From: an uncultured Bacteroidales bacterium
GTDB taxonomy: Bacteria; Bacteroidota; Bacteroidia; Bacteroidales; FEN-979
Length of the DNA: 64,000 nt
Direction: 5' to 3'
Assembly: GCA_903877385.1 (NCBI GenBank)
Contig: CAIRDP010000020.1
Span: 1-64,000, forward strand
Shown: piece by piece, positions 10,416 to 36,802 of the stretch
How the letters are laid out: each line of letters opens with the position of its first letter
How positions within the stretch are numbered: the stretch's first letter is position 1
The notes under the pieces: model-generated
What the model was told of the DNA's origin: nothing
What the model saw: the letters and a program-made list of their open reading frames with translations, nothing else
Databases searched by the model: none
Position numbers and translations under genes: made by a program

Positions 10416-10823
10416 CTAAGGTCCTTCCGTATTACTTGAATAGAGAATATCGATCTCTCCCTTTTCAGAAACACATTCCATTAACTTGTTCTTGAGTTTC
10501 CAGCAGGTCATCTGGCGAATGGTCATCTTACGGGCCAATTCATAAGAAGATATAGTGGGTTCATTGCAGACCATATGCATTATTCTGAATGCTTCGGGCA
10601 GATGTATCCTGCAACGATGAAAAATCGTATGGGCTGTAGCAGATTCTTCATGCTTGCATCGGGTACAGCGACGTGAATAAGGTGTTTTACCTTTACAATA
10701 ATTCGTATTTCCGCAATGCCGGCAGGTAAATCCGGAAGCCCACTTTTGATCTGCAATTAATGCCAAACATGCCTCCTCGGTAACTAATGATTTTATTTCA
10801 AGCTTAGCAAAGGGTATTTTCAT
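10416..10823 (-). CDS. IS1595-type transposase N-terminal zinc-ribbon protein, no DDE catalytic domain
   Basis: Two CxxC pairs (CRHCGN…CTRCKHEESATAHTIFHRC) typical of IS1595/ISXO2-family N-termini; the ORF stops after about 135 aa. Track ORF begins with TTG at 10841; ATG at 10823 preferred, with TAATTTTG on the minus strand at 10851-10844. Confidence 0.6.
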   Translation of the reverse strand: MKIPFAKLEIKSLVTEEACLALIADQKWASGFTCRHCGNTNYCKGKTPYSRRCTRCKHEESATAHTIFHRCRIHLPEAFRIMHMVCNEPTISSYELARKMTIRQMTCWKLKNKLMECVSEKGEIDILYSSNTEGP

Positions 10824-10859
10824 TTTAATATTGGTTTTCAATGCAAAATTAAAAAGAAT

Positions 10860-11618: not shown

Positions 11619-13073
11619 TCATTCAGGCAACAACCACCAGAAAGGATATCCCTTAGCCTTATGCAGGAACATATAATGGAGGAATAACTTTATCCAATGC
11701 CCGGCCAGCCCTATCTCCCCTACTGTTGCATTGATATCGCGCCCCCAGTCGGGATATTTTTCCCAATCAGGAACGACCGGTGAAACCGTCATTGTAGCGC
11801 CAAGACCTTTAGTCATGCTGAAACCGGCGGAAACAATGCATGCTGCCCCCATACGTCCCATATTTGCAAGATGTGGGTGATTGGTTCCACCCTTTTTAAT
11901 GATTTCAGAGATATTTTCGGCAACAATCTTTCCAATTACCCCAGAAGGCATCCCGGTGCGTGGAGGAGAAGGGAATATCTCCGTTCCATTGGGGCTTCTC
12001 ATGGGTTTTGAAATAGAATGAGGAGGAGCAAAAGCAATGCCTGTAGCATAAATATTAGGATAGGCAGGACTTTGATAACGCTCAGGCCAATCCCTGATAC
12101 TCCAGTCTTCAAACGGTTTAGGAGCATAATCAGCATCAACCAGCATGAAGCCGCTGGGCGCAAAAAGCCTGGGAGTAATGTCTTCACCTGTTTTTGCGTA
12201 GGCTTTAATACCCTGACCTGCAAACGCAGGGATCAGCATGGCAAAATCAAATTCAATCGAACTGATCTTTCCATCCAGGGTTTCATAAAGTGCTACGCCA
12301 GGATCCACTTTTGTGATGCCGGCCCGCTTGATCCAACTGATATTATTTTCGGCCAGTACCGATTCGGTAAAAACCTTAGTAGAAGTAATATATCCTCCCC
12401 TTTTAATAAAAGCTCCCCCCATCCCGAAATCCCCGACTTCGTATTCGTTGGATATCCAGGTTATATCGGCAAGATGGCTAAGTTTCCTCCGTTTAAACTC
12501 AAATGCAAGGTTCAGGGCATATTCAAAAGCAGCACCCTGGCAGGTAGCTTTTGGATGGCCGGTTCCGATGAGGAATCTTTGCTTTTTCCCCTGATGCATC
12601 CGATCGATTGCTTTCTGCAATTCATACCATGTATGTTCAGCATGATCACAGGAACAAACCGAAAGCGAATTTTTACCAGGTCCCAAGCCAGGAGTAGCAT
12701 CAAAATTAAGTTTAGGGCCGGTTGCATTAATCAGGAAATCATAGGGAACCTTCTCTTTTTGGCCGGTATTCCCTTCGGATGTGTACTCAATGGAAACGAA
12801 TCCTGATTTGATTTCATCGTCCCCTTCAGGATGTAATGAGATAGCTTTTGCTTGTTTGAATATGATACCCCAGCGTTTATATACCTTTGGAAGTTTAAAC
12901 CTGACCTGATCTACCGTCATTCTACCCACCCCAACCCATATATTTGAAGGTATCCATTGATAATACTGGCTGGGTGAAACAACAATCACTTCATGCTGCC
13001 GGCCTAGTTTTTTCTTGAGAAATGCGGCAGCCGTATGGCCTGAAATTCCTGCGCCAAGTACTACTACTTTCAT
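11619..13073 (-). CDS. FAD/NAD(P)-binding oxidoreductase, sulfide:quinone oxidoreductase-like
   Basis: N-terminal VVVLGAGISGHTAAAFLKK dinucleotide-binding motif; overall SQR-like layout with conserved cysteines (SVCSCDHAEH, GHPKATCQGAAFEY). Confidence 0.75.
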   Translation of the reverse strand: MKVVVLGAGISGHTAAAFLKKKLGRQHEVIVVSPSQYYQWIPSNIWVGVGRMTVDQVRFKLPKVYKRWGIIFKQAKAISLHPEGDDEIKSGFVSIEYTSEGNTGQKEKVPYDFLINATGPKLNFDATPGLGPGKNSLSVCSCDHAEHTWYELQKAIDRMHQGKKQRFLIGTGHPKATCQGAAFEYALNLAFEFKRRKLSHLADITWISNEYEVGDFGMGGAFIKRGGYITSTKVFTESVLAENNISWIKRAGITKVDPGVALYETLDGKISSIEFDFAMLIPAFAGQGIKAYAKTGEDITPRLFAPSGFMLVDADYAPKPFEDWSIRDWPERYQSPAYPNIYATGIAFAPPHSISKPMRSPNGTEIFPSPPRTGMPSGVIGKIVAENISEIIKKGGTNHPHLANMGRMGAACIVSAGFSMTKGLGATMTVSPVVPDWEKYPDWGRDINATVGEIGLAGHWIKLFLHYMFLHKAKGYPFWWLLPE

Positions 13074-15573: not shown

Positions 15574-16365
15574 ATGAGTGAGCTATTTGAAAAGATCCCC
15601 ATGGAAGGGGTTAATAATATTATTGTCATTGCATCCGGAAAAGGAGGTGTTGGCAAATCAACTGTTGCAGCCAACCTTGCCATAGCTTTTGCAAGAAACG
15701 GGCTGAGAACTGCATTGGTCGATGCAGATATATATGGCCCTTCTATTCCAAAGATGTTTGGTTTGGAAAACGAAAGACCTGATGTAAGTGCGATTGGAGA
15801 TAAAGAGATGATGTTCCCTATAGAAAAATTCGGGGTAAAGATCATGTCGATCGGATTCTTTGTTGCGCCAAACCAGTCATTGATCTGGCGTGGCCCGATG
15901 GCGTCAAATGCCATGACCCAGTTATTTGAAAACACCCAATGGGGAGATATTGATTATATGTTCGTGGATTTTCCTCCCGGCACCGGAGATATTCAACTTA
16001 CTACTGTACAAAAACTCAACCTGAAGGGGGCAGTCATCGTGACAACTCCACAGGGAATAGCCCTGAACGATGTACGCAAAGCCGCATCCATGTTTGACAA
16101 CCCGGATATTAAGGTTCCAATCCTTGGTGTTATTGAAAATATGTCATGGTTTACACCCGGAAAACACCTTGATGAAAAATATTTCATTTTTGGGAAAGGG
16201 GGCGGTCAAAAAATTGCATCCGAATATAACACTGAATTACTCGGGCAGGTACCACTTGTAATGGAAGTAGGCGAAGCCGCAGAACATGGGAAAAGCGTTT
16301 TCAACCAAAGTAATAAAGAGGTTGTAACTGTGTTTGAATGCATTGCTGTGAAATTAATTGATTAA
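15574..16365 (+). CDS. Mrp/NBP35-family ATP-binding protein
   Basis: GKGGVGKSTVAANLAIAFA deviant Walker A; FVDFPPGTGDIQLT; GVIENMSWF. Confidence 0.92.
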   Translation: MSELFEKIPMEGVNNIIVIASGKGGVGKSTVAANLAIAFARNGLRTALVDADIYGPSIPKMFGLENERPDVSAIGDKEMMFPIEKFGVKIMSIGFFVAPNQSLIWRGPMASNAMTQLFENTQWGDIDYMFVDFPPGTGDIQLTTVQKLNLKGAVIVTTPQGIALNDVRKAASMFDNPDIKVPILGVIENMSWFTPGKHLDEKYFIFGKGGGQKIASEYNTELLGQVPLVMEVGEAAEHGKSVFNQSNKEVVTVFECIAVKLID

Positions 16366-16441
16366 TGGAGCAGTAGATGGAAAAAAACTGACATTTGAAT
16401 GGAGATCTGAAGAAAATGAAATTTGTAATCCCAGGATTTTA

Positions 16442-17074
16442 ATGGAAACTGTAGTTCAACAGGTTTTAACAGATATCCGTTTTCAGGAAGGACTGAAAGC
16501 CTGTATCAGTTGCGGTACCTGCACTGCGATATGTCCGGCTGCCCAGGTGTCGGATTATGACCCCCGGATGCTTGTAGAAATGGTTCAAAGCCGCAATGAA
16601 GAAGTTTTATTGGAATTGCTGAGCGGAGATACCATCTGGCGCTGCGGTGAATGTTTATCGTGTAAAACAAGGTGTCCGCGGGGAAATACGCCCGGTTATA
16701 TCATACAGGCATTACGCGCATTGTCCATTAAAACGGGCTTATTTGCCGGTTCAAGACAAGGAAATCTGCAATTGGAAATAAAACGATCAGTAGGTGAACA
16801 TATCCTGAAATACGGTTACTGCGTGCACATTGATGAGATTGATACAGGTAAATATCCTGAACAGGGTCCGGTCTGGGAATGGTACAGGGAAAACCGGGAA
16901 TCTGTTCTTGCACGATTAGGGGCAAATTACAATCATGAAGGTGCCGGAACGCTGAGAAAAATTTCGGATCGTTCGCTGGAGGATCTACAAGCGATTTTTT
17001 TTGAAACCGGAGCAATGGAAAGATTTCAGCAGATTGAATCCGGAACTGCTAAAAAAGCAAACGATGAAAAATAA
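16442..17074 (+). CDS. Heterodisulfide reductase subunit C-like 4Fe-4S protein
   Basis: CISCGTCTAICP and CGECLSCKTRCPRG ferredoxin-type motifs; track start 16358, ATG 16442 preferred. Confidence 0.8.
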   Translation: METVVQQVLTDIRFQEGLKACISCGTCTAICPAAQVSDYDPRMLVEMVQSRNEEVLLELLSGDTIWRCGECLSCKTRCPRGNTPGYIIQALRALSIKTGLFAGSRQGNLQLEIKRSVGEHILKYGYCVHIDEIDTGKYPEQGPVWEWYRENRESVLARLGANYNHEGAGTLRKISDRSLEDLQAIFFETGAMERFQQIESGTAKKANDEK

Positions 17075-18128
17075 GAACCAGCGTTGGTTGTCCTATCAGA
17101 AAGAAATTGCCGATGACCACTATTATTTCGCCCGCTCCTGCATTCGCCAGAATTTTTTCCCGGCTTCAGAAACGATTTTCCTTAAAATACTTAAGGAAGA
17201 ACTTGGGAAAGATATCTTTGATGATCCGGAACAGACCACATGTACCGGGATTGCTTACCATTCGGGCATCATTCCCCTTGAAACGACCATGACTGTCGTG
17301 GCAAGACAATTCGCGCTGATGACCAGGGCCGGATATGAAAATTTTGTGTGTTCCTGTGTGACATCCTTTGGCATTTATACTGAAGTGCTGGAAATGTGGA
17401 AGCATTTTCCTGAAGAAGAAAAAAAAACCAGGGCAGCTTTATTGAAATCAACCGGCCTTGAATTCAAAATCCCTGCAAACCTGGTTCATACCAGTGATAT
17501 CATATACAAATTCAGGGATCAGATTGCTGAAAAGGCCAGGTTAAGACTGGTTAACTCTACGGATGGGAATCCTCTGAAAATTGTTGACCATGTTGGCTGT
17601 CATTATGCCAAAATATTCCCAGACAAAGGGATAGGAGGCGCTGAGTATCCTTATGTTCTAGCAGGTCTGATCGATGCCTGGGGTGGTGAGCAGGTAGATT
17701 ATCCTGAACGCAGACATTGCTGTGGGTTCGGATTCAGACAATACCTGATCAAAGAAAACCGTGGATACTCTGTTACCAATTCAAAAATCAAGTTTGAATC
17801 CATGAAACCCTATCATCCAGATATGATCATAGCCAATTGTCCGGGTTGCACATTTTTTCTTGATCGCTGGCAATACGTGATCAGTGAGATGGAAAATAAA
17901 ACCTATGATAATGAAGGTTACGGGATCCCGGTATTAACTTACGAAGAATTGGCCGGACTGGTCCTGGGGTATAATCCCTGGGATCTTGGCTTGCAACTGC
18001 ACCAGGTAGATGTGGAACCGCTTTTAATTAAATTAGGAGTGAGCTATTCACAAGAAGATAAATTTAAAGGTATGAATGGTGAGGAATTAGGAAAACCGGT
18101 GAAACCCCAATTTTTAAAAACTCTCTAA
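17064..18128 (+). CDS. Heterodisulfide reductase subunit B-like (CCG-domain) protein
   Basis: HVGCHYAKIFP … HCCGFGFRQY … NCPGCTFFLD; ATG 17064 overlaps the end of the HdrC-like gene. Confidence 0.8.
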   Translation: MKNKNQRWLSYQKEIADDHYYFARSCIRQNFFPASETIFLKILKEELGKDIFDDPEQTTCTGIAYHSGIIPLETTMTVVARQFALMTRAGYENFVCSCVTSFGIYTEVLEMWKHFPEEEKKTRAALLKSTGLEFKIPANLVHTSDIIYKFRDQIAEKARLRLVNSTDGNPLKIVDHVGCHYAKIFPDKGIGGAEYPYVLAGLIDAWGGEQVDYPERRHCCGFGFRQYLIKENRGYSVTNSKIKFESMKPYHPDMIIANCPGCTFFLDRWQYVISEMENKTYDNEGYGIPVLTYEELAGLVLGYNPWDLGLQLHQVDVEPLLIKLGVSYSQEDKFKGMNGEELGKPVKPQFLKTL

Positions 18129-18636: not shown

Positions 18637-19815
18637 ATGAAAGAAGAGAAATCCGGTTTTAACACCAAACTTATCCATTCAGGCGGCATCGAAGATCAAT
18701 TTCATTCAGCAACCGTTCCCATTTATCAAACATCTACTTTTTCCTTTGATAGTGCCGATGAAGGGGCACGCTGTTTCGCTGGTGAAAGTGACGGTTATAT
18801 ATACACACGCATCGGGAATCCTACGATCAATGCACTTGAAAAACAACTCGCCATTCTTGAGAATGGATATGGAGGTATTGCTGTGAGCTCTGGGATGGCA
18901 GCAGCAACTACTATTTATCTGGGGCTAATGAGCCAGGGAGATCATATTATCAGTACTGATGCCATCTATGGTCCCGCCAGGGGTGTCATGGAAAAACAGT
19001 TTACACGTTTTGGGTTTCAATCAACCTACATCAACACAACAGATGCTGCGCAGATTGAAAAAGCAATTAAACCCAATTCTAAAATTTTATACATAGAAAC
19101 TCCGGCAAATCCAACGATGGACATAACCGACCTGGTTGCATGCGCCGAGATTGCCCATAAACATAACTTGTTGCTGGTAGTTGATAATACGTTTTGCAGC
19201 CCATACTTACAAAATCCATTAGAATTGGGCGCCGACATAGTATTTCATTCGATGACCAAATTCATTAACGGCCATGCCGATATTGTCGCTGGTATCATCA
19301 TCCCCAAAGAAAAAGCGATGTATGATAAACTGAAGAATATGATGATCAACCTGGGTTGTAATATGGATCCACACCAGGCCTATATGGTGCTGCGAGGATT
19401 AAAAACCCTTGGCATCAGGATCGACAGGGCACAACAGAGTGCACTTGAAGTCGCAAAATTCCTTGAATCTCATCCGCAAGTGGCATGGATCAGGTATCCC
19501 GGGCTTCAATCACATCCCCAGTTTGAACTTGCAAATCAACAGATGAAAGGTAGTGGTTCAATGATCAGTTTCGGCCTTAAAGGAGGTTATGCGGCTGCAA
19601 AAAAATTACTCGACAATGTTAAGCTTGCACTTTTGGCCGTATCCCTGGGAGGCGTTGAAACTTTGATACAGCACCCGGCTTCAATGACACATTCCAAAGT
19701 TTCGGCAGAAGATAAAGAAAAAGCAGGTATTACTGATGACCTTATACGGCTGGCTATAGGGATAGAAGACGTTGAGGATATTATTCAAGACCTGAACAAT
19801 GCTTTATCACAATGA
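18637..19815 (+). CDS. Trans-sulfuration PLP enzyme (methionine gamma-lyase / cystathionine gamma-lyase-like)
   Basis: Cys/Met metabolism PLP family: FNTKLIHSGG, SSGMAAATTIYLGL, VVDNTFCSPYLQNPLELGADIVFHSMTKFINGHAD, LGGVETLIQHPASMTHS. Confidence 0.88.
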   Translation: MKEEKSGFNTKLIHSGGIEDQFHSATVPIYQTSTFSFDSADEGARCFAGESDGYIYTRIGNPTINALEKQLAILENGYGGIAVSSGMAAATTIYLGLMSQGDHIISTDAIYGPARGVMEKQFTRFGFQSTYINTTDAAQIEKAIKPNSKILYIETPANPTMDITDLVACAEIAHKHNLLLVVDNTFCSPYLQNPLELGADIVFHSMTKFINGHADIVAGIIIPKEKAMYDKLKNMMINLGCNMDPHQAYMVLRGLKTLGIRIDRAQQSALEVAKFLESHPQVAWIRYPGLQSHPQFELANQQMKGSGSMISFGLKGGYAAAKKLLDNVKLALLAVSLGGVETLIQHPASMTHSKVSAEDKEKAGITDDLIRLAIGIEDVEDIIQDLNNALSQ

Positions 19816-20042: not shown

Positions 20043-20687
20043 ATGGAAGTAAAAGAGATAAACAACAGGTATAGTGAACTCGCTGAATCGGAATGCTGCC
20101 TTTCCTGCGGTGGAGCAATAAATTATGCTGAACCGAAAACCGGTGAGGTGTGCGTTGACCTGGGGAGCGGTCGTGGGACCGATGTATTGCGTATGGCTGA
20201 ATCGGTAGGAGAAACAGGATTTGTTTATGGTATTGATATTTCGGATGGGATGCTTGAAAAAGCCCGCCGGAATGCAGAAAAATTTGGTGTAGCCAATGTA
20301 AGATTTGTCCAAAGTGAACTTGAAAAACTTAATCTTCCTGATAAGGTAGCAGACCTGGTTATCTCTAATTGCACCCTAAACCATGCCGGTGATAAACAGG
20401 CTGTATGGAACGAGATATACCGTATCCTGAAAAAAGGAGGAAGGTTCGTGATCAGCGATATTTATGCAACTAAACCTATTGCCGAAGAGTACAGAAACGA
20501 TCCTGTAGCAGTTGCCGAATGCTGGGCAGGTTCTGTAACAAGGCCGGAATATATGCAGCAGTTGGAAAAAGCAGGGTTTACCTCAGTTGAAATTATTGAG
20601 GAATCGGCTCCCTATAAAAAAGGAAATGCTGAAGTTGCCAGTTTTACCATTGCAGGAAAAAAGGATGCCTGTGAATGCGGGCATTGA
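20043..20687 (+). CDS. ArsM-like SAM-dependent methyltransferase
   Basis: CVDLGSGRGTDVL motif I; ArsM-type VISNCTLNHAGDKQAVWNEIYRILKKGGRFVISDI and AECWAGS; N-terminal ECCLSCGG and C-terminal CECGH cysteines. Confidence 0.82.
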   Translation: MEVKEINNRYSELAESECCLSCGGAINYAEPKTGEVCVDLGSGRGTDVLRMAESVGETGFVYGIDISDGMLEKARRNAEKFGVANVRFVQSELEKLNLPDKVADLVISNCTLNHAGDKQAVWNEIYRILKKGGRFVISDIYATKPIAEEYRNDPVAVAECWAGSVTRPEYMQQLEKAGFTSVEIIEESAPYKKGNAEVASFTIAGKKDACECGH

Positions 20688-20762
20688 TAAGATCTGAGGA
20701 TGATCACTTCTTCAGACCTCATATAAAGTAAAATAATCATTAACAAATCAAAAAACAGAACA

Positions 20763-20882
20763 ATGAAAAATCTTATTAAAAAGAAGATTGAAGTCAAAAC
20801 CCAGGTTAAAAAAGCTAATACAAAAAAAGTTGCACAGTGCTGTGCAAAAACATCCAAGACCATTGTGGGTTGCCATGATTAA
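20763..20882 (+). CDS. Putative RiPP precursor peptide (39 aa)
   Basis: Manual translation MKNLIKKKIEVKTQVKKANTKKVAQCCAKTSKTIVGCHD*; Lys-rich leader-like N-terminus, CC-X9-C core; ends 14 nt before a SPASM radical-SAM gene; not in supplied ORF track. Confidence 0.7.
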   Translation: MKNLIKKKIEVKTQVKKANTKKVAQCCAKTSKTIVGCHD

Positions 20883-20896
20883 AAAATGCCGATCAG

Positions 20897-22225
20897 ATGG
20901 TTTATTCAAAACACAATATTTTTTCAAGGATTACCGGGTCGGAAAACTTTTTCTTAGTTAATCTGCTTAGCGGCAGTGCCGATATTTTGAATCCACAAGA
21001 AGGGCATATGGTTCATGATCTTCTTAATGGAAACATGACTGCGGATGACTTTCGTGAAAGCCTTATACAAAAAGGGTACCTTGTGGATGAAAAAGAGGAA
21101 ACGAAGCTGTATCGAAGCAAGTATCTCGATTTCATCGACACCCGTGATAACGATGAGGTGCAGCTGTTTTTTGTGCCCAACTACAGTTGCAATTTTGCTT
21201 GCACTTATTGTTACCAGGATGAGTATGCCCCGGCCAAGCAGGAGCTGACTACTGAAATAATTGATGCATTCTTCAGGTATATCAGCCATGAATTTGCAGG
21301 GCGCAAAAAATACCTTACGGTTTTTGGTGGTGAGCCATTGCTCAGTTCTGCTAAACAAAAAGAGCTGATCGCATACCTGCTTCAACAGGCCAATCAATCA
21401 AATCTTGAAGTCTGCCTTGTAACAAACGGATATTCACTTAGCGGGTATATCGACATCCTGAAAACAGCAAAAATCAGGGAAATCCAGGTTACGCTTGACG
21501 GCGTTGGCAATGTTCATGATGCCCGTCGTTTCCTTAAAGGAGGGGGAGCGACCTTTGAAAAGATCGTAGAAGGGATAGATGCCTGTCTCGACAGCCAATT
21601 GCCGGTAAACCTGAGAATGGTGATCGATAAGGAGAATATTGACGACCTTCCTGAAATGGCGCAATTTGCAATTGATAAAGGCTGGACAAAAAATGAGCTT
21701 TTTAAAACACAGCTCGGCCGTAATTATGAGTTGCATCATTGCCAGGTGACTTCCGAAAAACTTTTTAGCCGTATCTCGCTTTACGAAACAATATATCAAC
21801 AGGTAAAGCAACATCCGCATATTCTTGAATTTTATAAGCCAGCCTACTCCATATCAAAATTCCTTTTTGAAAACGGCAGCCTTCCCGATCCATTGTTCGA
21901 TGCATGCCCTGCCTGTAAAACGGAATGGGCTTTTGATTATACCGGTCATATCTTCTCATGTACCGCTACAGTTGGGAAGGCTGATGAATCTCTGGGTACC
22001 TTCTACCCTGACGTATCACGCAAGGATGAAATGATCGCGGTTTGGGAAAACCGTGATGTTACTGCTATATCAGAATGCTTCACCTGCAGCATGCAACTGG
22101 CATGCGGAGGAGGATGCGGATCAGTTGCCAAAAACAGGACCGGCGATGTATGCTCCACCGATTGCCGCCCGGTAAAGGAATTGCTGGAACTGGGATTTTC
22201 GGCTTATTTTGAGAATACTAAATAA
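20897..22225 (+). CDS. Radical SAM/SPASM peptide maturase-like protein
   Basis: CNFACTYC (CX3CX2C); FGGEPLL; SPASM-like cysteines CPACKTEWAFDYTGHIFSC…CFTCSMQLACGGGCGS…CSTDC. Confidence 0.88.
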   Translation: MVYSKHNIFSRITGSENFFLVNLLSGSADILNPQEGHMVHDLLNGNMTADDFRESLIQKGYLVDEKEETKLYRSKYLDFIDTRDNDEVQLFFVPNYSCNFACTYCYQDEYAPAKQELTTEIIDAFFRYISHEFAGRKKYLTVFGGEPLLSSAKQKELIAYLLQQANQSNLEVCLVTNGYSLSGYIDILKTAKIREIQVTLDGVGNVHDARRFLKGGGATFEKIVEGIDACLDSQLPVNLRMVIDKENIDDLPEMAQFAIDKGWTKNELFKTQLGRNYELHHCQVTSEKLFSRISLYETIYQQVKQHPHILEFYKPAYSISKFLFENGSLPDPLFDACPACKTEWAFDYTGHIFSCTATVGKADESLGTFYPDVSRKDEMIAVWENRDVTAISECFTCSMQLACGGGCGSVAKNRTGDVCSTDCRPVKELLELGFSAYFENTK

Positions 22226-22306
22226 AATCATACACCACAACATTAATAGTAAAAGACAGGGTTCACGATCATCATCCAATTGACGCATTAAAAAATTAAA
22301 AAAAGA

Positions 22307-23575
22307 ATGAAAGAAATCACATCATCCGAATTCGAAACAGAAGTTCTTAAAGGTGGAAAAGTTGCACTTGATTTTTATTCCACCGAATGCCCTCCATGTG
22401 AGGCTTTGGCCCCCAAGTTTGAAGGACTGGCCTCACTTTACGGCAAAGACATAAAGTTCTTTAAAATGTTCCGTCAGCAAAACAAGCCGTTGGCCGAGAG
22501 CCTGGGAGTAAGATCCTCCCCCACTCTGCTGTTTTTTGATAACGGAGTGCAATCCCCGGTCACACTCACTGGGGGCATTAAAAGGAGCGACATTATTCAT
22601 GAACTCGACAGCATGTTATCCGCAGAAAGAGTTCAGGAGATAAAGAAAGAAATAAAACCGACTGTTTCTGAATTCGACGTTCTTATTCTTGGCGCAGGTC
22701 CGGGTGGACTTACTGCAGGATTGTACCTTTGCCAGGCGAAAGTGAATACCGTTTTGATTGATATTGCACTTCCCGGCGGACAGGTTTCAACCACGCATGA
22801 AGTATCGAATTACCCCGGCTTCATCGATCCCCAGCCAGGTTATATGCTCTCTCACAACATGTCGGAGCAAACCAGACTATGCGGAACCATTTATAAGGTG
22901 GCTGTTGATGTAACAAAAGTTGACCTGGAGAAGAAAGAAGTAATCATTGATGAATTTGAGACCATCAGGGCAAAAAAGATCATCATTGCAACCGGAACAT
23001 CTCCCAACCTGATGGGCATACCAGGAGAGAAAGAACTGAAGGGAAAAGGAATTTCCTATTGTGCCACCTGCGACGCCAAGTATTATGGCGACAAGGAAGT
23101 AGTTGTGATCGGAGGCGGGAATTCGGCCGTGGAAGAAGCAGACTTTATCAGCAGGTTTGCAAGTAAAATCACCATGGTTCACCAGTTTGACGCCCTTACT
23201 GCCAATAAGCTGGCGCAGGAGAAATTGTTTGCAAATGAAAAGATCAAGGTTCTTTTCTCACACGAGCCAAGGTCTTTTGTACGCGATGGAGATAAAATGA
23301 TAACGGAAGTTGAAGATTTAAAAACCAAAACTGTATCCAGACTGCACAGCGATGGCGTATTCGTTTTTATAGGCATGAAGCCCAATATTGATCTATTCAG
23401 GGATAAACTGGAACTTGATAAGTGGGGTTATATAAAGACAGATGAAGATATGCACACAAGTATGCCCGGAATCTTTGCAGTTGGCGACGTCATCAGTAAA
23501 AAATACAGGCAAATTACGACGGCTGTTGCCGATGGAACCATTGCGGCCATTGCCATCGCAAAAGAATTGAATTAA
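22307..23575 (+). CDS. Thioredoxin–thioredoxin reductase fusion protein
   Basis: N-terminal Trx domain with ECPPCEAL; C-terminal TrxR with LGAGPGGLTAGLYL, CATCDAKYY and FAVGDV. Confidence 0.88.
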   Translation: MKEITSSEFETEVLKGGKVALDFYSTECPPCEALAPKFEGLASLYGKDIKFFKMFRQQNKPLAESLGVRSSPTLLFFDNGVQSPVTLTGGIKRSDIIHELDSMLSAERVQEIKKEIKPTVSEFDVLILGAGPGGLTAGLYLCQAKVNTVLIDIALPGGQVSTTHEVSNYPGFIDPQPGYMLSHNMSEQTRLCGTIYKVAVDVTKVDLEKKEVIIDEFETIRAKKIIIATGTSPNLMGIPGEKELKGKGISYCATCDAKYYGDKEVVVIGGGNSAVEEADFISRFASKITMVHQFDALTANKLAQEKLFANEKIKVLFSHEPRSFVRDGDKMITEVEDLKTKTVSRLHSDGVFVFIGMKPNIDLFRDKLELDKWGYIKTDEDMHTSMPGIFAVGDVISKKYRQITTAVADGTIAAIAIAKELN

Positions 23576-23594
23576 TCACATAAACCTAAGTGAT

Positions 23595-24002
23595 ATGAGT
23601 ACAAACCAATTGATCATCGAGCATGTAAGTCCTTTTAACGTACCCGTTACTGTTGAAAAGCTTAAAGAAGTTGCAAAACTCAAAGGATGGCAGAATCCTG
23701 CTGTACACAATCTTCAGCAATCACTTGCTAAATCAGGTAAAGAAGTTCTGCCCGTTGAGGTTGTAGAAATCTGCAAACCGGAATATTCAGGTAGTATGCT
23801 TGAAAAAAACGATGAGCGGATTGTTTCGGTTTTAATGCCTTGCCGGATTTCGGTTTACGAAAAAAATGACGGTAAAACTTACGTTGCATTATTGGACATG
23901 TCGCAATTGACAGATGGGATGACACAAACAGCGACAAAAGCTGTACAAGCTGCATCTGATGAATCCTTTGAGATCGTTAAAGCGGTCGTAGGAGCGTTCT
24001 GA
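23595..24002 (+). CDS. DUF302-family protein
   Basis: 135 aa, SPFNVPVTVEKLKEVAKLKGW … EICKPEYSGSMLEKNDERIVSVLMPCRISVYE. Confidence 0.75.
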   Translation: MSTNQLIIEHVSPFNVPVTVEKLKEVAKLKGWQNPAVHNLQQSLAKSGKEVLPVEVVEICKPEYSGSMLEKNDERIVSVLMPCRISVYEKNDGKTYVALLDMSQLTDGMTQTATKAVQAASDESFEIVKAVVGAF

Positions 24003-24006
24003 CAAG

Positions 24007-25173
24007 ATGAAAAAAGTTCTTGTTCTCGGAGGCGGATTTGCGGGTTTACAAACAGCTATTGAATTACAGAAAAAAGGCGGCTTTGATATTACCCTGGTTT
24101 CTGATCGGGACTACTTATACTTGTTCCCAATTTCCATCTGGGTTCCGGTTCGACTGAAGGCTTTCGAAGATGTAAAAGTACCTTTAGCTAAAATCCGGAA
24201 GAAATATCCTTTTAAGCTTATTTTGGATAAAGTCACTGAAATTCACGCGGCAGACAAAAAGGTGGTTTGTGAAAATCGGACGTTGAACTATGATTATCTG
24301 GTTGTAGCTTTCGGGGCAGAAAAATTGCAACATAAGGGAATAAATCACACCCTCTCGATTTGCGGTAAGCCGGAGATGGCGATGGAAATCCGCAACAAAA
24401 TTGATGCCCTGGTTCAAAAAGGCAGCGGTAAAATCGCGATCGGTTTTGGGGGAAATCCAAAGGATAAATCGGCTGTTCGCGGTGGCCCCGCTTTTGAACT
24501 GATCTTCAACATCCACAATTATTTGAAATCCAAAAAACTGAGGGATAAATTTGAACTGACGTTTTTTGCACCTATGGACGAGCCGGGAGCCAGGATGGGA
24601 AAAGGCGCCCTGGCCATGATGGATAAAATGTTTACTCAATATGGCATAGGTAAACGATTTGGGAAAAAGATCGCAGAGTTTGTAAGTGATGGCGTGATCT
24701 TTGAAGATAATTCAAAACTTAGTTCCGATTTTACGATGTTCATTTCAGCCGGGACCGGGCCTGCAATACTGAAAAATTCAGATCTTCCTCTTTCGGAAGC
24801 CGGGTTTGTAAAAATTGACAATTCCGGTCAGGTTCAAGGATATCCTGATGTTTATGCAATTGGTGATATCGCTGCTCTTGAAGGCCCTGAATGGATTGCG
24901 AAACAAGGCCATATTGCCGAACTCATGGGACGAAATGCTGCCTATAATATTATTCAGGCAGATAAAGGAAGCAGTAAACGAAAAGGTTACCAGGAACATC
25001 TGAACATTCTTTGTGTGATGGATACCGGTAACGGAGCTGCTTTTGTTTTCAGGAATGGCAAGAAAGCAGTTATGATCCCCATGCCCCTTGTAGGACATTG
25101 GTTGAAAAATGGATGGGGTATTTATTCGAGACTGTCAAAGATCGGAAAGTTCCCAAGATTGCCTGGAATATGA
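24007..25173 (+). CDS. FAD-dependent pyridine nucleotide-disulfide oxidoreductase, SQR/NDH-2-like
   Basis: VLVLGGGFAGLQTAIELQK; AIGDIAAL; LVGHWLKNGWG. Confidence 0.82.
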   Translation: MKKVLVLGGGFAGLQTAIELQKKGGFDITLVSDRDYLYLFPISIWVPVRLKAFEDVKVPLAKIRKKYPFKLILDKVTEIHAADKKVVCENRTLNYDYLVVAFGAEKLQHKGINHTLSICGKPEMAMEIRNKIDALVQKGSGKIAIGFGGNPKDKSAVRGGPAFELIFNIHNYLKSKKLRDKFELTFFAPMDEPGARMGKGALAMMDKMFTQYGIGKRFGKKIAEFVSDGVIFEDNSKLSSDFTMFISAGTGPAILKNSDLPLSEAGFVKIDNSGQVQGYPDVYAIGDIAALEGPEWIAKQGHIAELMGRNAAYNIIQADKGSSKRKGYQEHLNILCVMDTGNGAAFVFRNGKKAVMIPMPLVGHWLKNGWGIYSRLSKIGKFPRLPGI

Positions 25174-25787
25174 GATTCCTGATTCTTATTGCCCTTTGGT
25201 CTGCATTCTGCTTCCTTCATAGCTTCATGATCACTCCTTTTTTCATTGATTTTGTGAAGAAGAATACAGGAACCTCATACCGCTATTATCGCTTGTTCTA
25301 TAACATTTTCTCAACTCTTATCCTGGTTCCGGTGGTAATCTACTCATACTCCGTCATGCAAAAGCCTTTTTTCACCTGGCATGGATATCTTCTGGCGGTA
25401 AAGTATTTTATGCTGATGGCTGGCTTGGGGATTTTATACGCGGGTTCAAGGCATTACAATATGAGGACATTCCTTGGAATAAACCAGATACATGCAGGTG
25501 TAAACCATGGGTTGATCAATACCAGCGGTACGATTGAAAAGCGAGGCATCATGGGAGTTGTAAGGCATCCGTTTTATTCCGGTTCATTCCTGCTGATCTG
25601 GGCCGGAAATCTCGATACTACACGATTGATCATAAACATTATCCTGAGCCTGTACCTTGTTGTGGGGACAATGCTCGAAGAACGAAAACTGCTGTCAGAA
25701 TTGGGAGATGTTTACAGAGATTACCAGAAAGAAGTATCCATGCTTTTCCCATGGAAATATATAAAAAGGCAGCTCAAATCCAATTAA
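25170..25787 (+). CDS. ICMT/NnrU-like integral membrane methyltransferase-family protein
   Basis: Several TM segments; VVRHPFYSGSFLLIWAG … EERKLLSELGDVYRDYQKEV. ATGA overlap with upstream stop at 25170-25173 preferred over track start 25098. Confidence 0.75.
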   Translation: MRFLILIALWSAFCFLHSFMITPFFIDFVKKNTGTSYRYYRLFYNIFSTLILVPVVIYSYSVMQKPFFTWHGYLLAVKYFMLMAGLGILYAGSRHYNMRTFLGINQIHAGVNHGLINTSGTIEKRGIMGVVRHPFYSGSFLLIWAGNLDTTRLIINIILSLYLVVGTMLEERKLLSELGDVYRDYQKEVSMLFPWKYIKRQLKSN

Positions 25788-25791
25788 GGAA

Positions 25792-26178
25792 TTAATCGAC
25801 AACCCCGGCCTGCTTTGAGAAAATCAAACGGAGTGCAGTAAGCAGAAGGAATATGCCGAATATCTTCTTCATGAGATTCTCCGGTAATTTTAAAGCGATC
25901 ATCGAGCCAAAATACCCGCCTATCATAAATGTGACTGCAATAATTACAGCATACCAAATATTTACCTGGCCTGCTTTGTAATAATTATATGCTGCAAAAA
26001 GTCCGATTGGCGGCAACATAACAGCTAAGCTTGTCCCCTGGGCAGTATGCTGGTCAACTCCTAGAAAATAAACCAGGGCCGGAATCATTATTACTGCACC
26101 TCCTACCCCAAACATCCCACCAAAAACCCCTGCCATCAGACCAATGACAATAAGGGTGAACACTGTTGAAATACTCAT
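25792..26178 (-). CDS. TauE/SafE (TSUP)-family half-size membrane protein
   Basis: GVFGGMFGVGGAVIMIPALVYFLGVDQHTAQGTSLAVMLPP; only 128 aa. Confidence 0.8.
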   Translation of the reverse strand: MSISTVFTLIVIGLMAGVFGGMFGVGGAVIMIPALVYFLGVDQHTAQGTSLAVMLPPIGLFAAYNYYKAGQVNIWYAVIIAVTFMIGGYFGSMIALKLPENLMKKIFGIFLLLTALRLIFSKQAGVVD

Positions 26179-27458: not shown

Positions 27459-27695
27459 TCAGCAGGCACAGGGACGATTGACTATAAAGTACCCGAGAAA
27501 ACCTCCGAAAGCAATACTGGCATAAGGATTACTGGTGATCGCACAGGTTCCTGAGGCGCAGCCTACGAAATGGTAATATAAAAAACCACCAAGTCCGCCC
27601 AAAGCAGCAAAAGTGATGGACTTCCAGAAGTCCCAGGTTTTAAGTCTTTCCTTAAATGGAAGCGGCTCTTTCTTAGTTTCGCATGAATCTGACAT
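27459..27695 (-). CDS. DUF6132-like small membrane protein
   Basis: 78 aa; GGLGGFLYYHFVGCASGTCAITSNPYASIAFGGFLGY. Confidence 0.7.
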   Translation of the reverse strand: MSDSCETKKEPLPFKERLKTWDFWKSITFAALGGLGGFLYYHFVGCASGTCAITSNPYASIAFGGFLGYFIVNRPCAC

Positions 27696-31176: not shown

Positions 31177-32349
31177 TTAATAAATATGTGACTCGGACTG
31201 CAGTTCCTCTGTGCTTATCTTCTTTTTATCGATGGCTCTCCATACATACCAGATATAGGCCAGAACAAAAGGTACAAGGAGTGACACATAGCTCATAGCC
31301 GTGAGGGTGTAATGGCTTGACGAGCTGTTTTCAATGGTAAGGGAGCTTTGAAGGTCCCAGTTTGACGGATAAAACGCAGTATGGTTAAAACCAGCGAGCA
31401 ATAATAACGCCCAAACTGTCAGCACCGTGCCTGTCCCGCTCAACCATATCCCCTTTGTATGGCATTTCTCAAAGCAGGCAACTGATCTTATAATTCCTAA
31501 TAATACCCCGGCAACACCAAGTACAAAAAGAATTGCAACGACAGGCAGGGCGATCAGGTTGTGCAGGTATTTATATGGTTCCATGCTTACAATACCTGTT
31601 TTGGGATCTACTGCAAAACCGCTTGAAAGAAGGAGCCATCCGGCGAATGCAAGAAAAAAGACCAGGAAGGGAATGGCATTGTAAAGGAGCTGTTTTTTCA
31701 GCCTTTCCATTATTGCTGCATGATCTAAACGGTTCATGAAGTAAAGGATCGCAAGCACCCTTGAAAGGAAAAAAACAGCGAGTCCCAGTGAAAGGTTCAC
31801 CGGGCTAAGCGCAGCTTCAAGCCCGTGTGCAGGTCCTTTCCATTCTGAAATAACCGGCATGTTCCCTGAGGTAAGATCCAAAAGATTCATTTTATTCACA
31901 GAAAACGCAGAGCCGGTAAAAAAGGTTGCCACTGCGGTTCCCAGGAGTAATGTCCCAAGAAGTCCATTAAACATGAGAAATATTTCAAAGGTCTTCTGGC
32001 CCAGGAAATTCCCTGGTTTTTTTCGGTATTCGTATGAAACAGCCTGTATGACGAAAGCTATGAGAATAGCCATCCAGACCCAGTAAGCTCCTCCGAAACT
32101 TGTTGAATAAAACAATGGGAAAGATGCAAAAAAAGCACCACCGAAAGTGACGAGTGTGGTAAAAGTCAACTCCCATTTTCGACCCAGGAGATTGACCAGC
32201 AGGGTTCTCTCCTCTTCCGATTTTCCAAGAGTAAAAATTAATGTTTGTCCTCCCTGGACAAACATCAGGAAAACCAATAATGCTCCCAGAAGGGAAACTA
32301 TAAGCCACCAGTATTGTTGCAGGCTTAACAGGGATAATGATTCAAACAT
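31177..32349 (-). CDS. cydB: Cytochrome bd ubiquinol oxidase subunit II
   Basis: 390 aa polytopic membrane protein with CydB-type layout (FVQGGQTL, LGRKWELTFTTLVTFGGAFFASFPLFYSTSFGGAYWVW). Confidence 0.9.
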   Translation of the reverse strand: MFESLSLLSLQQYWWLIVSLLGALLVFLMFVQGGQTLIFTLGKSEEERTLLVNLLGRKWELTFTTLVTFGGAFFASFPLFYSTSFGGAYWVWMAILIAFVIQAVSYEYRKKPGNFLGQKTFEIFLMFNGLLGTLLLGTAVATFFTGSAFSVNKMNLLDLTSGNMPVISEWKGPAHGLEAALSPVNLSLGLAVFFLSRVLAILYFMNRLDHAAIMERLKKQLLYNAIPFLVFFLAFAGWLLLSSGFAVDPKTGIVSMEPYKYLHNLIALPVVAILFVLGVAGVLLGIIRSVACFEKCHTKGIWLSGTGTVLTVWALLLLAGFNHTAFYPSNWDLQSSLTIENSSSSHYTLTAMSYVSLLVPFVLAYIWYVWRAIDKKKISTEELQSESHIY

Positions 32350-32380
32350 GGTATCTTGGATTTGTTATGACATGAAAAAA

Positions 32381-33919
32381 TTAAGCGGTAAAACCTTTTC
32401 CGATCTGCTTTACGATAATGCCGATCTCGGCAATCAGCAAAGCCGTGAAGAAAACAGCAAACACCCAGAAGGTCAGCTGAACCGATGAAGCTTTCAACTG
32501 GGATACGGCGGCGATGGTGGGCAGGATATCCTGGATTACCCAGGGCTGACGCCCAACTTCAGCAACAATCCAGCCCAGCATCGAAGCGATATAGGCAAGC
32601 GGGATAGTCCAGAGAGCCGTGTAAAGGATGACCTTTTTATTTTCAATCCTGTTTTTCACAGTAAGGATCAAAACGACCAGGATCAGGGCAAAAAAATGCA
32701 AGCCCAGGAATACCATGATACGGAATGAATAAAAACTCATAGTGATGTTGGGAATGAGTTCATGGACCTCGCGGTTTGCATAATACCCGTAACCGAAATT
32801 GTTATAATTTTTTTCAAAAGTACCCAGCATGGCATTGGCCAGGCTGTCATTCCCCGCCAGTTTTGCTCTTTTATAGGCAGCCAGGGCATTAATGGCGATT
32901 TCCCCTTTCGTAATCCGTTCATTATATGAAGGAACACCATGATCCGCATTCCCGTGGACCAGGTCATAGATGCCCGGCACATAGGCATTAGGGTTTAGGA
33001 AGGCCATATATGAAAGAACATCGGGGATCTCAACAAGGTAGCTGAAATTCATTTTTTTATGATCTGTTGCATTGGGATCCTGCTTCAGGATGCCGAAAGC
33101 CACAAGAGGCGCATTCTGCTGGCCCATGTACAGATTTTCCATGGCTGCGAATTTCATGGGCTGGTGATGGGCCACGGCACGTGCCGATCCGTCGCCTGTA
33201 AACATTATGAATATCGAAGCCAGTAAGCCAAAACTTGCAGCCACTACAATACTTCGTTTCGCATACACCACATCTCGTTTTTTCAAAAGGTACCATGAAC
33301 TTATACCGATAACGAAGAGAGCGGCCAATACATAACCTGAAGAAACAGTATGCAGGAATTTATTGACGGCTATGGGCGAAAAAAGAATTTTCCAGAAATC
33401 CACCATTTCATTCCTGGCCGTATCAGGGTTGAATTTCATTCCCACCGGCAACTGCATCCAGCCATTGGCCACCAATATCCATAAAGCGGAAAGGTTACTG
33501 CCTATAGCCACCAGCCAGGTAGCCAGCAGGTGGAATTTCTTTCCCACCTTGTTCCATCCGAAGAACATGACCGCAATAAATGTCGATTCCAGAAAGAACG
33601 CCATGATGCCTTCGATGGCTAAGGGCGCTCCGAATATATCGCCTACAAACCAGGAATAGTTCGACCAGTTTGTGCCGAATTCAAATTCAAGGATAAGACC
33701 GGTTGCAATGCCGATTGCAAAATTGATCCCGAAAATGGTCATCCAGAATTTCGTCAGTCGCTTCCATTCTTCATTCCCGGTTTTCACGTAAATCGTCTCC
33801 ATGAAGGCAATAATGAATGACAACCCTAAAGTTAAAGGGACGAAAAGCCAGTGGTAGCATGCGGTCAACGCGAACTGTGCCCTTGACCAGTCTACAAGTG
33901 AAAAGTCAATATGAGTCAT
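32381..33919 (-). CDS. cydA: Cytochrome bd ubiquinol oxidase subunit I
   Basis: DWSRAQFALTACYHWLFVPLTLGLSF; EGIMAFFLESTF; GRQPW motif. Confidence 0.95.
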   Translation of the reverse strand: MTHIDFSLVDWSRAQFALTACYHWLFVPLTLGLSFIIAFMETIYVKTGNEEWKRLTKFWMTIFGINFAIGIATGLILEFEFGTNWSNYSWFVGDIFGAPLAIEGIMAFFLESTFIAVMFFGWNKVGKKFHLLATWLVAIGSNLSALWILVANGWMQLPVGMKFNPDTARNEMVDFWKILFSPIAVNKFLHTVSSGYVLAALFVIGISSWYLLKKRDVVYAKRSIVVAASFGLLASIFIMFTGDGSARAVAHHQPMKFAAMENLYMGQQNAPLVAFGILKQDPNATDHKKMNFSYLVEIPDVLSYMAFLNPNAYVPGIYDLVHGNADHGVPSYNERITKGEIAINALAAYKRAKLAGNDSLANAMLGTFEKNYNNFGYGYYANREVHELIPNITMSFYSFRIMVFLGLHFFALILVVLILTVKNRIENKKVILYTALWTIPLAYIASMLGWIVAEVGRQPWVIQDILPTIAAVSQLKASSVQLTFWVFAVFFTALLIAEIGIIVKQIGKGFTA

Positions 33920-34093
33920 AAATTATATTTTGATTTGTGATAATTGAAGAACCCTGCCTTTAGCGCCTGGGAATATGGTCGGGAGGGTTCAATGTGCTAA
34001 TATAAGAAAATATCCCGTAATGTGGTCAAGGGTTTAAATTATATTGTAACTACTTGATTTTCATACTTGTAAAGGCTTGTTCCGCCCGGGATC

Positions 34094-35029
34094 CTACAGT
34101 ATGCTGTGAACGATCACGAATAAGGAACTCACCGAAATCAAGGCCCAGAGGAAAACTCCAAGTAACATTGGCCTGAAACTCACGGTTTTCAATGCTTCCC
34201 TTGTAAGTCCCGCTCCAATAAGGAATAAGGTCAGGGTGAGGCCCCGTTTGGCCAGGATCACAATAATCTGATCGGCCGAATGCAAAAAGGGGAAAAAGGT
34301 ATTGGCCATCATCGCTATCACAAAGAAGAGTATGAACCAGGGTATCTTTACCTTGTTTTTGCTGCTTTTAAAAGCTAAGGCCATAATAAAAGAAACGGGG
34401 ATTATCCACAGCGCCCTTTCAAGTTTCACCGTGGTGGCGATCTGCAAGGCTTCTGCCCCGAATTTATGCGCTGCGCCCACCACCGAACTGGTATCATGGA
34501 TAGCGATCGCCGCCCATAATCCGAACTGGGACTGGCTTAAATGAAGCCAGGTCCCTATCATTGGAAAAAGTATAAGCGCAACGGAATTCAGGATAAATAC
34601 GGTTGCAAGTGAAACTGATATCTCATTCTCTTTGGCTCCGATCACCGGTGCAACGGCAGCAATCGCGCTGCCTCCGCAGATGGCTGTACCGCTTGAAATA
34701 AGTACAGAGGTTTTTTTATTTACATGCATTAAACTGCCTGCAATCAGCCCGGCAATTAAGGTCAGGCTTATCGAGGCCACTGTAAAAAGTATACCCTGTT
34801 TCCCGGCTTTTGCAGCCTCGAAGGCATTCATTCCGAAACCCAGTCCTACCACCGAAATCTTTAACAGTAAACCCGTGGCCTTATTATTCTGTTTTTCGTA
34901 CGGATGGCCCATTACCTGCGACAAAACAATTCCCAGGAACAAGGCTGCAGGAGGTTCTATCCAGGGCGAGAGGCAGGCTGCCCCGGCTAATAAAAACATC
35001 AGTTTCTTCAGTAAATCTGTTCTGTCCAT
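34094..35029 (-). CDS. YeiH-family putative sulfate exporter
   Basis: KISVVGLGFGMN; SSGTAICGGSAIAAVAPVI; AIHDTSSVVGA; ATG 35029 preferred over track start 35095. Confidence 0.85.
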   Translation of the reverse strand: MDRTDLLKKLMFLLAGAACLSPWIEPPAALFLGIVLSQVMGHPYEKQNNKATGLLLKISVVGLGFGMNAFEAAKAGKQGILFTVASISLTLIAGLIAGSLMHVNKKTSVLISSGTAICGGSAIAAVAPVIGAKENEISVSLATVFILNSVALILFPMIGTWLHLSQSQFGLWAAIAIHDTSSVVGAAHKFGAEALQIATTVKLERALWIIPVSFIMALAFKSSKNKVKIPWFILFFVIAMMANTFFPFLHSADQIIVILAKRGLTLTLFLIGAGLTREALKTVSFRPMLLGVFLWALISVSSLFVIVHSIL

Positions 35030-35109
35030 CTGCAGTTCTTTTAAAATAAAATCCCTGCAAATGTCGGTACATCGGCTGGCCCTACCCAGATGCAAAAACT
35101 TATCCTGAA

Positions 35110-36006
35110 TTACTTTTGGTTATAATTCCTCAGCGCGAAATGGATGAATGTATCGGCCAGCCCGTCTGATTTTCCGTGAAGGTGGACAAAATAAAATGTG
35201 CGCGGTATATCCAGGCCGGGGATGTCGAGGATTTTAAACTCCCCGTTTGCTATTTCCTTTGAAACAGCGGCAATGGAGATAAATCCCAGGCAATTGGTAT
35301 TGGCTAAAAAAGACTTGATGCTTTCGGTGCTTCCAAGGTACATGGCTACATTGAGATCCGACAACTGAATCTTATGCATCCCCAGTTCATGCTCAATAAC
35401 CTCGAGGCTGCCCGAACCTCTTTCCCTGAAAACGATAGGGATCTTTTTTAATTCGGGTAATTCCAGTTGGTTCAGTTTTGCCAGGGCCTGGCTGGTATGG
35501 ACAAGCGGGACCAGCTCATCCTTAATGAATGGAATATATTTCAGCTCCTTGTTCTTCGTCCTGCCCTCAACCATTCCAAGCTGTATCCTCTGGTCCAGCA
35601 AAGCGGCTTCTATCTTTTCGGTGTTATCGTTGATCAGCGAAAGTTTGATCTGGGGAAACCTCTGGTAAAATTTAGCCAGCACAGGCGGCAGCACATATTG
35701 CCCTATAGTAGTGCTGGCTCCGAGCTGCAGGCTCCCCGAGAATTTCTTCTTCAGTACGCCGAAATCAAAATCAATCTGTTTGTAAACACCTATGATCTGC
35801 TGGGTGTAGTTCAGCAGGATACGGCCGGCAGGAGCCAAAACGATCTTATTACCTTTACGCTCGAATAAACGGATGTCAAACTCTTTTTCGAGCTCCTGTA
35901 TATTCCTGGTGACTGCCGGCTGGGTTATAAAAAGCTCTGCAGCGGCTTTCGTAAAGCTCAGATGAGTTGCAACGGAATGAAAAACCTGAAGTCTGAAATC
36001 GGGCAT
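35110..36006 (-). CDS. LysR-family transcriptional regulator
   Basis: N-terminal HTH LQVFHSVATHLSFTKAAAELFITQPAVTRNIQELEKEFDIRLFER. Confidence 0.92.
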   Translation of the reverse strand: MPDFRLQVFHSVATHLSFTKAAAELFITQPAVTRNIQELEKEFDIRLFERKGNKIVLAPAGRILLNYTQQIIGVYKQIDFDFGVLKKKFSGSLQLGASTTIGQYVLPPVLAKFYQRFPQIKLSLINDNTEKIEAALLDQRIQLGMVEGRTKNKELKYIPFIKDELVPLVHTSQALAKLNQLELPELKKIPIVFRERGSGSLEVIEHELGMHKIQLSDLNVAMYLGSTESIKSFLANTNCLGFISIAAVSKEIANGEFKILDIPGLDIPRTFYFVHLHGKSDGLADTFIHFALRNYNQK

Positions 36007-36110
36007 TGTCCTTTTACTTAGTGAACCTTATGCAAACAAAGGTACTCATGAAACCTCTTTGGGTCCTCCCTAACTATAACTCCTGCTGTTCTTTTGCAAA
36101 AATAACAAAT

Positions 36111-36129
36111 AAATCGCTTAATTATCACT
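36111..36129 (+). promoter_or_regulatory. Site 6 of 19-bp motif (AAATCGCTTAATTATCACT), 9 nt before -7 TATCTTTG (36139-36146)
   Basis: Divergent intergenic region between LysR gene and DUF2892/OsmC pair. Confidence 0.65.
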
Positions 36130-36177
36130 AATTATTTTTATCTTTGCATTAAGTATTAACCCTAAAACCGAAATATC

Positions 36178-36381
36178 ATGAAAAAGAACATGGGAACTAT
36201 TGATATTACAATCAGGATCCTGGTTGCTGTTTTGGTAGCAGTATTATTTTTCACCAAAGTCATAACAGGTGTGCTCGGTATCGTCCTGCTGGTTTTTGCC
36301 GGTATTTTCATACTCACAAGCATCATAGGATTCTGCCCCTTGTATATGCCCTTTAAGATCAATACAAAGAAAAAAGAGTAA
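36178..36381 (+). CDS. DUF2892 (YgaP-like) inner membrane protein
   Basis: 67 aa; MKKNMGTIDITIRILVAVLV … TSIIGFCPLYMPFKI. Confidence 0.8.
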   Translation: MKKNMGTIDITIRILVAVLVAVLFFTKVITGVLGIVLLVFAGIFILTSIIGFCPLYMPFKINTKKKE

Positions 36382-36382
36382 A

Positions 36383-36802
36383 ATGTCAAGCCAGAAAACA
36401 AGTGTAGAGTGGCAGTCGGAAATGACTTTTAAAGCAAAAGTCAACGGGCATGAGATTATTCTGGATGCTGATATACAGGTGGGCGGAAAAGATCTTGGTC
36501 CCCGGCCTAAACCCCTTATTCTTGTGGCTCTTGCCGGCTGCACCGGGATGGATGTGATCGCTATCCTGAAGAAAATGAAGGTCAGTCCCGATTATTTCAA
36601 TGTGGATGTGGAAGGTGAACTAACCGAGGAACATCCGAAGCAATTTTCGAGCATTCACATTGTTTATAAATTCAGGGGGAAAGACCTTCCTTTAGACAAA
36701 CTTCAGAAAGCCATCGACCTTTCACAGGAGAGATATTGCGGCGTATCGGCCATGCTAAAAAAAGCCCTGCCCATCACTTCCGAGATCAGGATCCTGGACT
36801 AA
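36383..36802 (+). CDS. OsmC-family protein
   Basis: PKPLILVALAGCTGMDVIAILKKMKV; C-terminal RYCGVSAMLKKALPI. Confidence 0.9.
   Translation: MSSQKTSVEWQSEMTFKAKVNGHEIILDADIQVGGKDLGPRPKPLILVALAGCTGMDVIAILKKMKVSPDYFNVDVEGELTEEHPKQFSSIHIVYKFRGKDLPLDKLQKAIDLSQERYCGVSAMLKKALPITSEIRILD

Follow-up and report, generated by a model that had tools for sequence, protein, structure and literature searches.

The analysis gives good support to an undescribed, conserved pair of a short precursor peptide and a radical SAM (rSAM)/SPASM maturase, which is embedded in a four-gene thiol cassette. The peptide family and its pairing with the enzyme are highly probable, and we infer the chemistry and function of the peptide. 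The constant unit consists of genes for an ArsM-like methyltransferase, the peptide, the maturase, and a thioredoxin–thioredoxin reductase (Trx-TrxR) fusion. It lies on the forward strand of the window (the whole analyzed stretch of 64,000 nucleotides), which belongs to a Bacteroidota genome of 4.3 Mb that is 98% complete.

A short peptide gene is conserved beside the maturase gene

The peptide is encoded at 20763–20882 by an ORF of 39 codons that runs from ATG to TAA and stops 14 nt before the start of the rSAM gene at 20897, in position and sequence as the original prediction had it. It consists of a leader (MKNLIKKK...), a variable Lys-rich middle, and the conserved core AQCCAKTSKTIVGCHD. 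The DNA of the conserved tail, QCCAK-x6-GCHD-stop, lies at 20835–20882 on the same strand.

When 85,462 species genomes were scanned, this rSAM protein turned up at 80 loci (58–95% identity), mainly in Bacteroidales MAGs and some in Ignavibacteria and Kapaibacteria. The analysis used the 77 loci at which the match to the maturase extends to its start or very close to it. A peptide of 31–39 residues with the tail AQCCAKxSxxxxGCHD is carried by all 72 testable loci or their genomes, testable loci being those with more than 600 nt upstream of the rSAM gene, and in 70 of these it adjoins the maturase. In the other two (L045 and L051), the peptide sits beside the methyltransferase elsewhere in the genome, on a separate contig in L045 and, in L051, on the contig of the maturase some 9.6 kb farther upstream, so that the loss of both genes is apparent only and reflects rearrangement. 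L038 likewise has the peptide, and L052 and L076 have copies cut by contig ends. The proposal of a RiPP-type precursor beside a SPASM maturase is supported.

In the relatives, the peptide is encoded upstream of the maturase, starts with MK(S/N)L(V/I)KKK, and ends with AQCCAK-x-S-x4-GCHD (three shorter lengths in the extraction list are an effect of the start-choice rule). Ten of the 16 core residues (A, C, C, A, K, S, G, C, H, and D, including three cysteines) are invariant in all 74 extracted peptides and the Q is present in 73, and the ten stay fixed while rSAM identity drops to 58%. Mean codon entropies in the core are 0.24, 0.35, and 1.32 bits at positions 1, 2, and 3, and the dN/dS of 0.038 in close pairs indicates strongly purifying selection on a coding sequence. 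Both checks attached to the original prediction, for conservation beside homologous SPASM genes and for a coding substitution pattern, therefore came out in its favor.

Among 396 genomes of the phylum, a degenerate DNA version of the tail pattern matches in six, against none for a reversed control. The maturase profile recovers the same six (E < 1e-190) and, beyond them, two far weaker relatives; neither a peptide without maturase nor a maturase without peptide was seen at high score in this set. The 39-residue ORF is a real gene: conservation, dN/dS, the controlled pattern scan, and co-occurrence with the rSAM gene rule out a chance ORF. At the class level, the distribution is patchy (3/388 genomes). 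Most host Bacteroidota are known through metagenomes of environmental samples, whose site names (Lac Pavin, boreal lakes, groundwater, and a sulfur cave) give the impression of anoxic waters. A phage origin was rejected, as the tail pattern has no match in 2.9 million viral contigs, and so was a plasmid-borne family, since plasmids hold only distant rSAM relatives, the best ones below 30% identity. No Rfam RNA element was matched in the window.

Some distant rSAM relatives fall outside the family. Those of G716 and G426 (E ~1e-60) belong to another family without such a peptide. L100 (5579–7196, reverse strand) and L101 (5361–6752, reverse strand) encode members of a more distant rSAM/SPASM family (E ~1e-60), and in L100 a 52-residue ORF (...EWCEFCDPIFCAPVKPTE) about 50 nt downstream may be another precursor.

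The maturase scores far below all named families

The maturase gene (20897–22225, forward strand) had been noted for a CNFACTYC motif and SPASM-like cysteines. These form a complete pattern, with the CX3CX2C motif at residues 98–105 followed by seven SPASM cysteines (C340-x9-G350-x4-C355, C394-x2-C397-x5-C403-x3-C407, and C423), which is invariant in all 30 homologues aligned. An N-terminal RRE is predicted at about residues 7–83. In the AlphaFold model (mean pLDDT 79, with a weaker SPASM part), this region folds into three strands followed by three helices, an arrangement that RRE domains share, and the RRE-bearing CteB aligns to the maturase from residue 29 on.

Of the solved structures, the ranthipeptide maturase CteB of the SCIFF system (PDB 5WGG, 5WHY) comes closest in both profile (3.4e-18) and fold (E 4e-16) comparisons. 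The two have in common the rSAM and SPASM architecture, with an RRE that is predicted in our enzyme, and a short Cys-rich substrate, but are only 17% identical. CteB has an RRE, and one of its auxiliary clusters takes up a substrate cysteine; the link in CteA/Tte1186a joins Cys32 and Thr37 (PMC8172795). The invariant Cys(-14)-x4-Ser(-9) of our peptide has the same spacing as this Cys-x4-Thr link. However, the SCIFF/ranthipeptide model TIGR03974 scores 78.2 bits against a cut-off of 425, and SCIFF peptides have six cysteines in about 45 residues, compared with three invariant ones here. SCIFF hosts are Clostridia rather than Bacteroidota, and the methyltransferase and Trx-TrxR partners further set the cassette apart. 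CefB, the maturase of Cys-every-fifth peptides (NF038107), is the top NCBIfam match and aligns over the full length (1–440), but its 150.9 bits fall below the cut-off of 600, and the peptide lacks the cysteine-every-fifth pattern. PapB, the SPASM maturase of the Cys-containing ranthipeptide freyrasin, matches with 118.5 bits (cut-off 340), and its Cys-x3-Asp acceptor motif (PMC8172795) is absent from the peptide, which has C-x-D only.

No named NCBIfam maturase model thus comes near its cut-off, and no Pfam or NCBIfam model exceeds its cut-off for the peptide. None of the papers covered by the literature search names the motif or brings these partners together, and a survey of Bacteroidales RiPPs mentions neither the motif nor a thioredoxin partner. 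The original assessment of the peptide as belonging to no named family holds.

The core is rich in potential ligands (Cys, Cys, Cys, His, and Asp) and its modification is a prediction, as would suit a small metal- or redox-active protein that the rSAM enzyme leaves unmodified while acting on another substrate. We consider this improbable in view of the one-to-one co-occurrence of peptide and rSAM protein, the RRE-like domain together with the precursor-leader layout, and the fold match with peptide maturases.

Four genes form the constant unit

The first gene of the cassette (20043–20687, forward strand) encodes an ArsM-like SAM methyltransferase of 214 residues and is present upstream in 64 of 66 loci. 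The Trx-TrxR fusion (22307–23575, forward strand), with a CPPC motif in the thioredoxin and CATC in the reductase part, follows downstream in all 71 testable loci. The proposed redox/thiol operon is supported. The maturase, the methyltransferase, and Trx-TrxR show correlated pairwise distances (0.85–0.89); shared host ancestry accounts for part of this correlation, since the comparison had no unlinked control gene.

The operon had been drawn wider, to include three further forward-strand genes. Pfam and NCBIfam agree with the initial assignments of the methyltransferase, the rSAM protein, the Trx-TrxR fusion, and two of these three, a DUF302 protein (23595–24002) and an SQR-family flavoprotein (24007–25173). 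Across the loci, DUF302 is a frequent neighbor (40/77 within 8 kb) and the SQR-like protein an occasional one (14 loci within 8 kb); like the last gene of the row, they stand outside the constant four. This last gene (25170–25787), initially called ICMT/NnrU-like, encodes a membrane methyltransferase-like protein. The assignment is retained as a weak MddA/ICMT match (65 bits against a cut-off of 270 for the methanethiol S-methyltransferase MddA), and its start is corrected from TTG 25098 to a probable ATG at 25170, which overlaps the stop of the SQR-like gene and corresponds to the first Met of the homologue in L008. On the reverse strand, the row is flanked by a TauE/SafE sulfite-exporter-type protein (25792–26178) and followed by a DUF6132-like small membrane protein (27459–27695), whose gene in many relatives immediately precedes that of the methyltransferase and shares the strand of the cassette. 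The commonest neighbors are DUF302, DUF6132, and thioredoxins; DUF1847, a YgaP-type membrane protein, an SQR-like flavoprotein, a 4Fe-4S membrane protein, OsmC, and rhodanese also recur.

SPASM-modified Cys peptides have general precedents, and an ORF of precursor size with a leader is what an exported RiPP natural product, such as a bacteriocin or signal, would require, with the redox neighbors being incidental. We consider such a product unlikely. The core is near-invariant from Bacteroidales to Ignavibacteria and Kapaibacteria, whereas antibiotic RiPPs have variable cores; the operons of related loci have no recurrent gene for a peptide exporter, a peptidase, or immunity; and the Trx-TrxR fusion is never missing from the testable ones.

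Other genes were observed in the surroundings. A protein of 140–150 residues that consists only of the zinc ribbon of IS1595-type transposases is encoded in the window about 10 kb from the cassette (10416–10841, reverse strand), in L067 (1231–1683, reverse), in L116 (1324–1758, reverse), and in L117 (6706–7149, forward). Its cluster occurs in 22 loci, and in many relatives the gene lies divergently, just upstream of the DUF6132, methyltransferase, and peptide genes; it is perhaps a transposase domain turned regulator. A TonB-dependent receptor and a lipoprotein-like gene are found near the cassette in L025, L029, L043, and L055.

Sulfur and arsenic in the genomic setting

The methyltransferase residues C22, C110, and C160 align with Cys72, Cys174, and Cys224 of CmArsM, which are its As ligands (PMC3877260). 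Across 64 sequences, C110 and C160 never change, and 97% retain C22. The modified peptide could be a metalloid scaffold that binds As(III) (or Se, Te, or Sb) through CC...CHD and passes it to the methyltransferase, with Trx-TrxR supplying reducing equivalents. This possibility, which we regard as doubtful, is favored by the three cysteines and by the fact that the methyltransferase stays with the peptide even where both are apart from the maturase. It is also favored by Acr3, which is present in 35 of 36 carriers and 23 of 43 non-carrier class relatives (p = 6e-6, without correction for phylogeny or habitat). However, the cassette enzyme shares the fold of ArsM but lacks its C-terminal domain and scores 195.7 bits against a cut-off of 263 in the ArsM model NF008823. 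On another contig, the genome contains a separate, complete ars operon (ArsR-like, canonical ArsM, Acr3, and ArsC-like), whose ArsM is about 40% identical to the cassette enzyme. The latter is therefore probably not the general arsenite methylase of the host. Moreover, ArsR, Acr3, and ArsC were not seen to recur beside the cassette.

The sulfur setting suspected at the outset is supported by neighboring genes, which include an octaheme cytochrome, Sulf_transp, SQR-like, rhodanese, YgaP, and DUF302 proteins. In L116, genes for NifX-like, DUF1847, octaheme cytochrome, cytochrome b, two Sulf_transp, and DUF134 proteins lie between peptide and maturase, and a third Sulf_transp gene follows Trx-TrxR. 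The cytochrome belongs to the octaheme tetrathionate-reductase family (557.6 bits, cut-off 375), which occurs together with YeeE/YedE transporters in two loci. In L117, an SQR-like flavoprotein directly follows the peptide. At many loci, the cassette has no sulfur gene next to it. Genome-wide, Sulf_transp is found in 25 of 36 carriers and 14 of 43 non-carriers (p = 0.0015, again uncorrected for phylogeny or habitat), and is absent from the genome of the window; DUF302 is common in both sets, and a nifH control is not enriched (5/36 and 4/43). In these comparisons, most carriers came from the rSAM scan and the non-carriers from the class sample. As the enrichment of Acr3 exceeds that of Sulf_transp, the true context could be arsenic, or habitat could lie behind both enrichments. 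The genome-wide comparisons support both readings, and our moderate preference for sulfur over a metalloid is based on the gene neighbors.

The window contains further genes of related types. A second SQR-like flavoprotein of 484 residues (11619–13073, reverse strand) is 72% identical to the peptide neighbor in L117, which has no Pfam match at 1e-5. A gene pair resembling the heterodisulfide reductase subunits HdrC/HdrB (16358–18128) is followed, upstream of the cassette, by a methionine gamma-lyase-type enzyme (18637–19815). The row at 31177–36802 encodes cytochrome bd subunit II, a likely subunit I, a YeiH-type putative sulfate exporter, a LysR-type regulator, and an OsmC-like protein; some relatives have homologues of these next to the cassette. 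Cytochrome bd has a known role in sulfide tolerance.

Discussion

The locus would give rise to a ribosomally made, post-translationally modified thiol peptide, for which an intracellular thiol carrier or cofactor is the most likely reading. The leader MK(S/N)L(V/I)KKK would be read by the RRE of the maturase, as its predicted fold suggests, and the enzyme would act on the core AQCCAKxSxxxxGCHD. The most likely reaction is formation of a radical thioether of the ranthipeptide or sactipeptide type from one cysteine, which we propose because the Cys-x4-Ser spacing equals that of the Cys-x4-Thr link in CteA. SPASM enzymes also carry out non-thioether chemistry. At least one thiol might be left free and held reduced by the Trx-TrxR fusion, and the ArsM-like enzyme may methylate either the peptide or a soft element carried by it. 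Given how little the core varies, and that neither an exporter nor a peptidase recurs, the product probably stays in the cell as a carrier or cofactor.

Judged by its neighborhood, the cassette may serve the handling of sulfane sulfur, thiosulfate, or sulfide; a metalloid role comes a close second. Taken as a whole, a maturase-modified and probably intracellular thiol peptide that is kept reduced by its own Trx-TrxR and serves such sulfur handling has about an even chance of being correct. PQQ and mycofactocin are peptide-derived cofactors made by SPASM enzymes, and the cassette, whose function is a prediction, resembles their systems in its constant core, dedicated redox enzymes, and lack of an exporter, but differs in the peptide and in the partner enzymes. 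More tentatively, the peptide may represent a new class of ribosomal thiol cofactor, a near-constant, rSAM-modified intracellular carrier of sulfane sulfur or a metalloid with a Trx-TrxR of its own for recycling.

Small constant peptide cofactors made by SPASM enzymes are few. If the cassette yields one, its dedicated thioredoxin reductase and ArsM-like partner would make it a thiol carrier of a new type. With only four genes, the unit is compact and lends itself to direct tests, and it could tie the radical chemistry of RiPPs to the way in which bacteria of anoxic waters tolerate sulfide, polysulfide, or arsenic.
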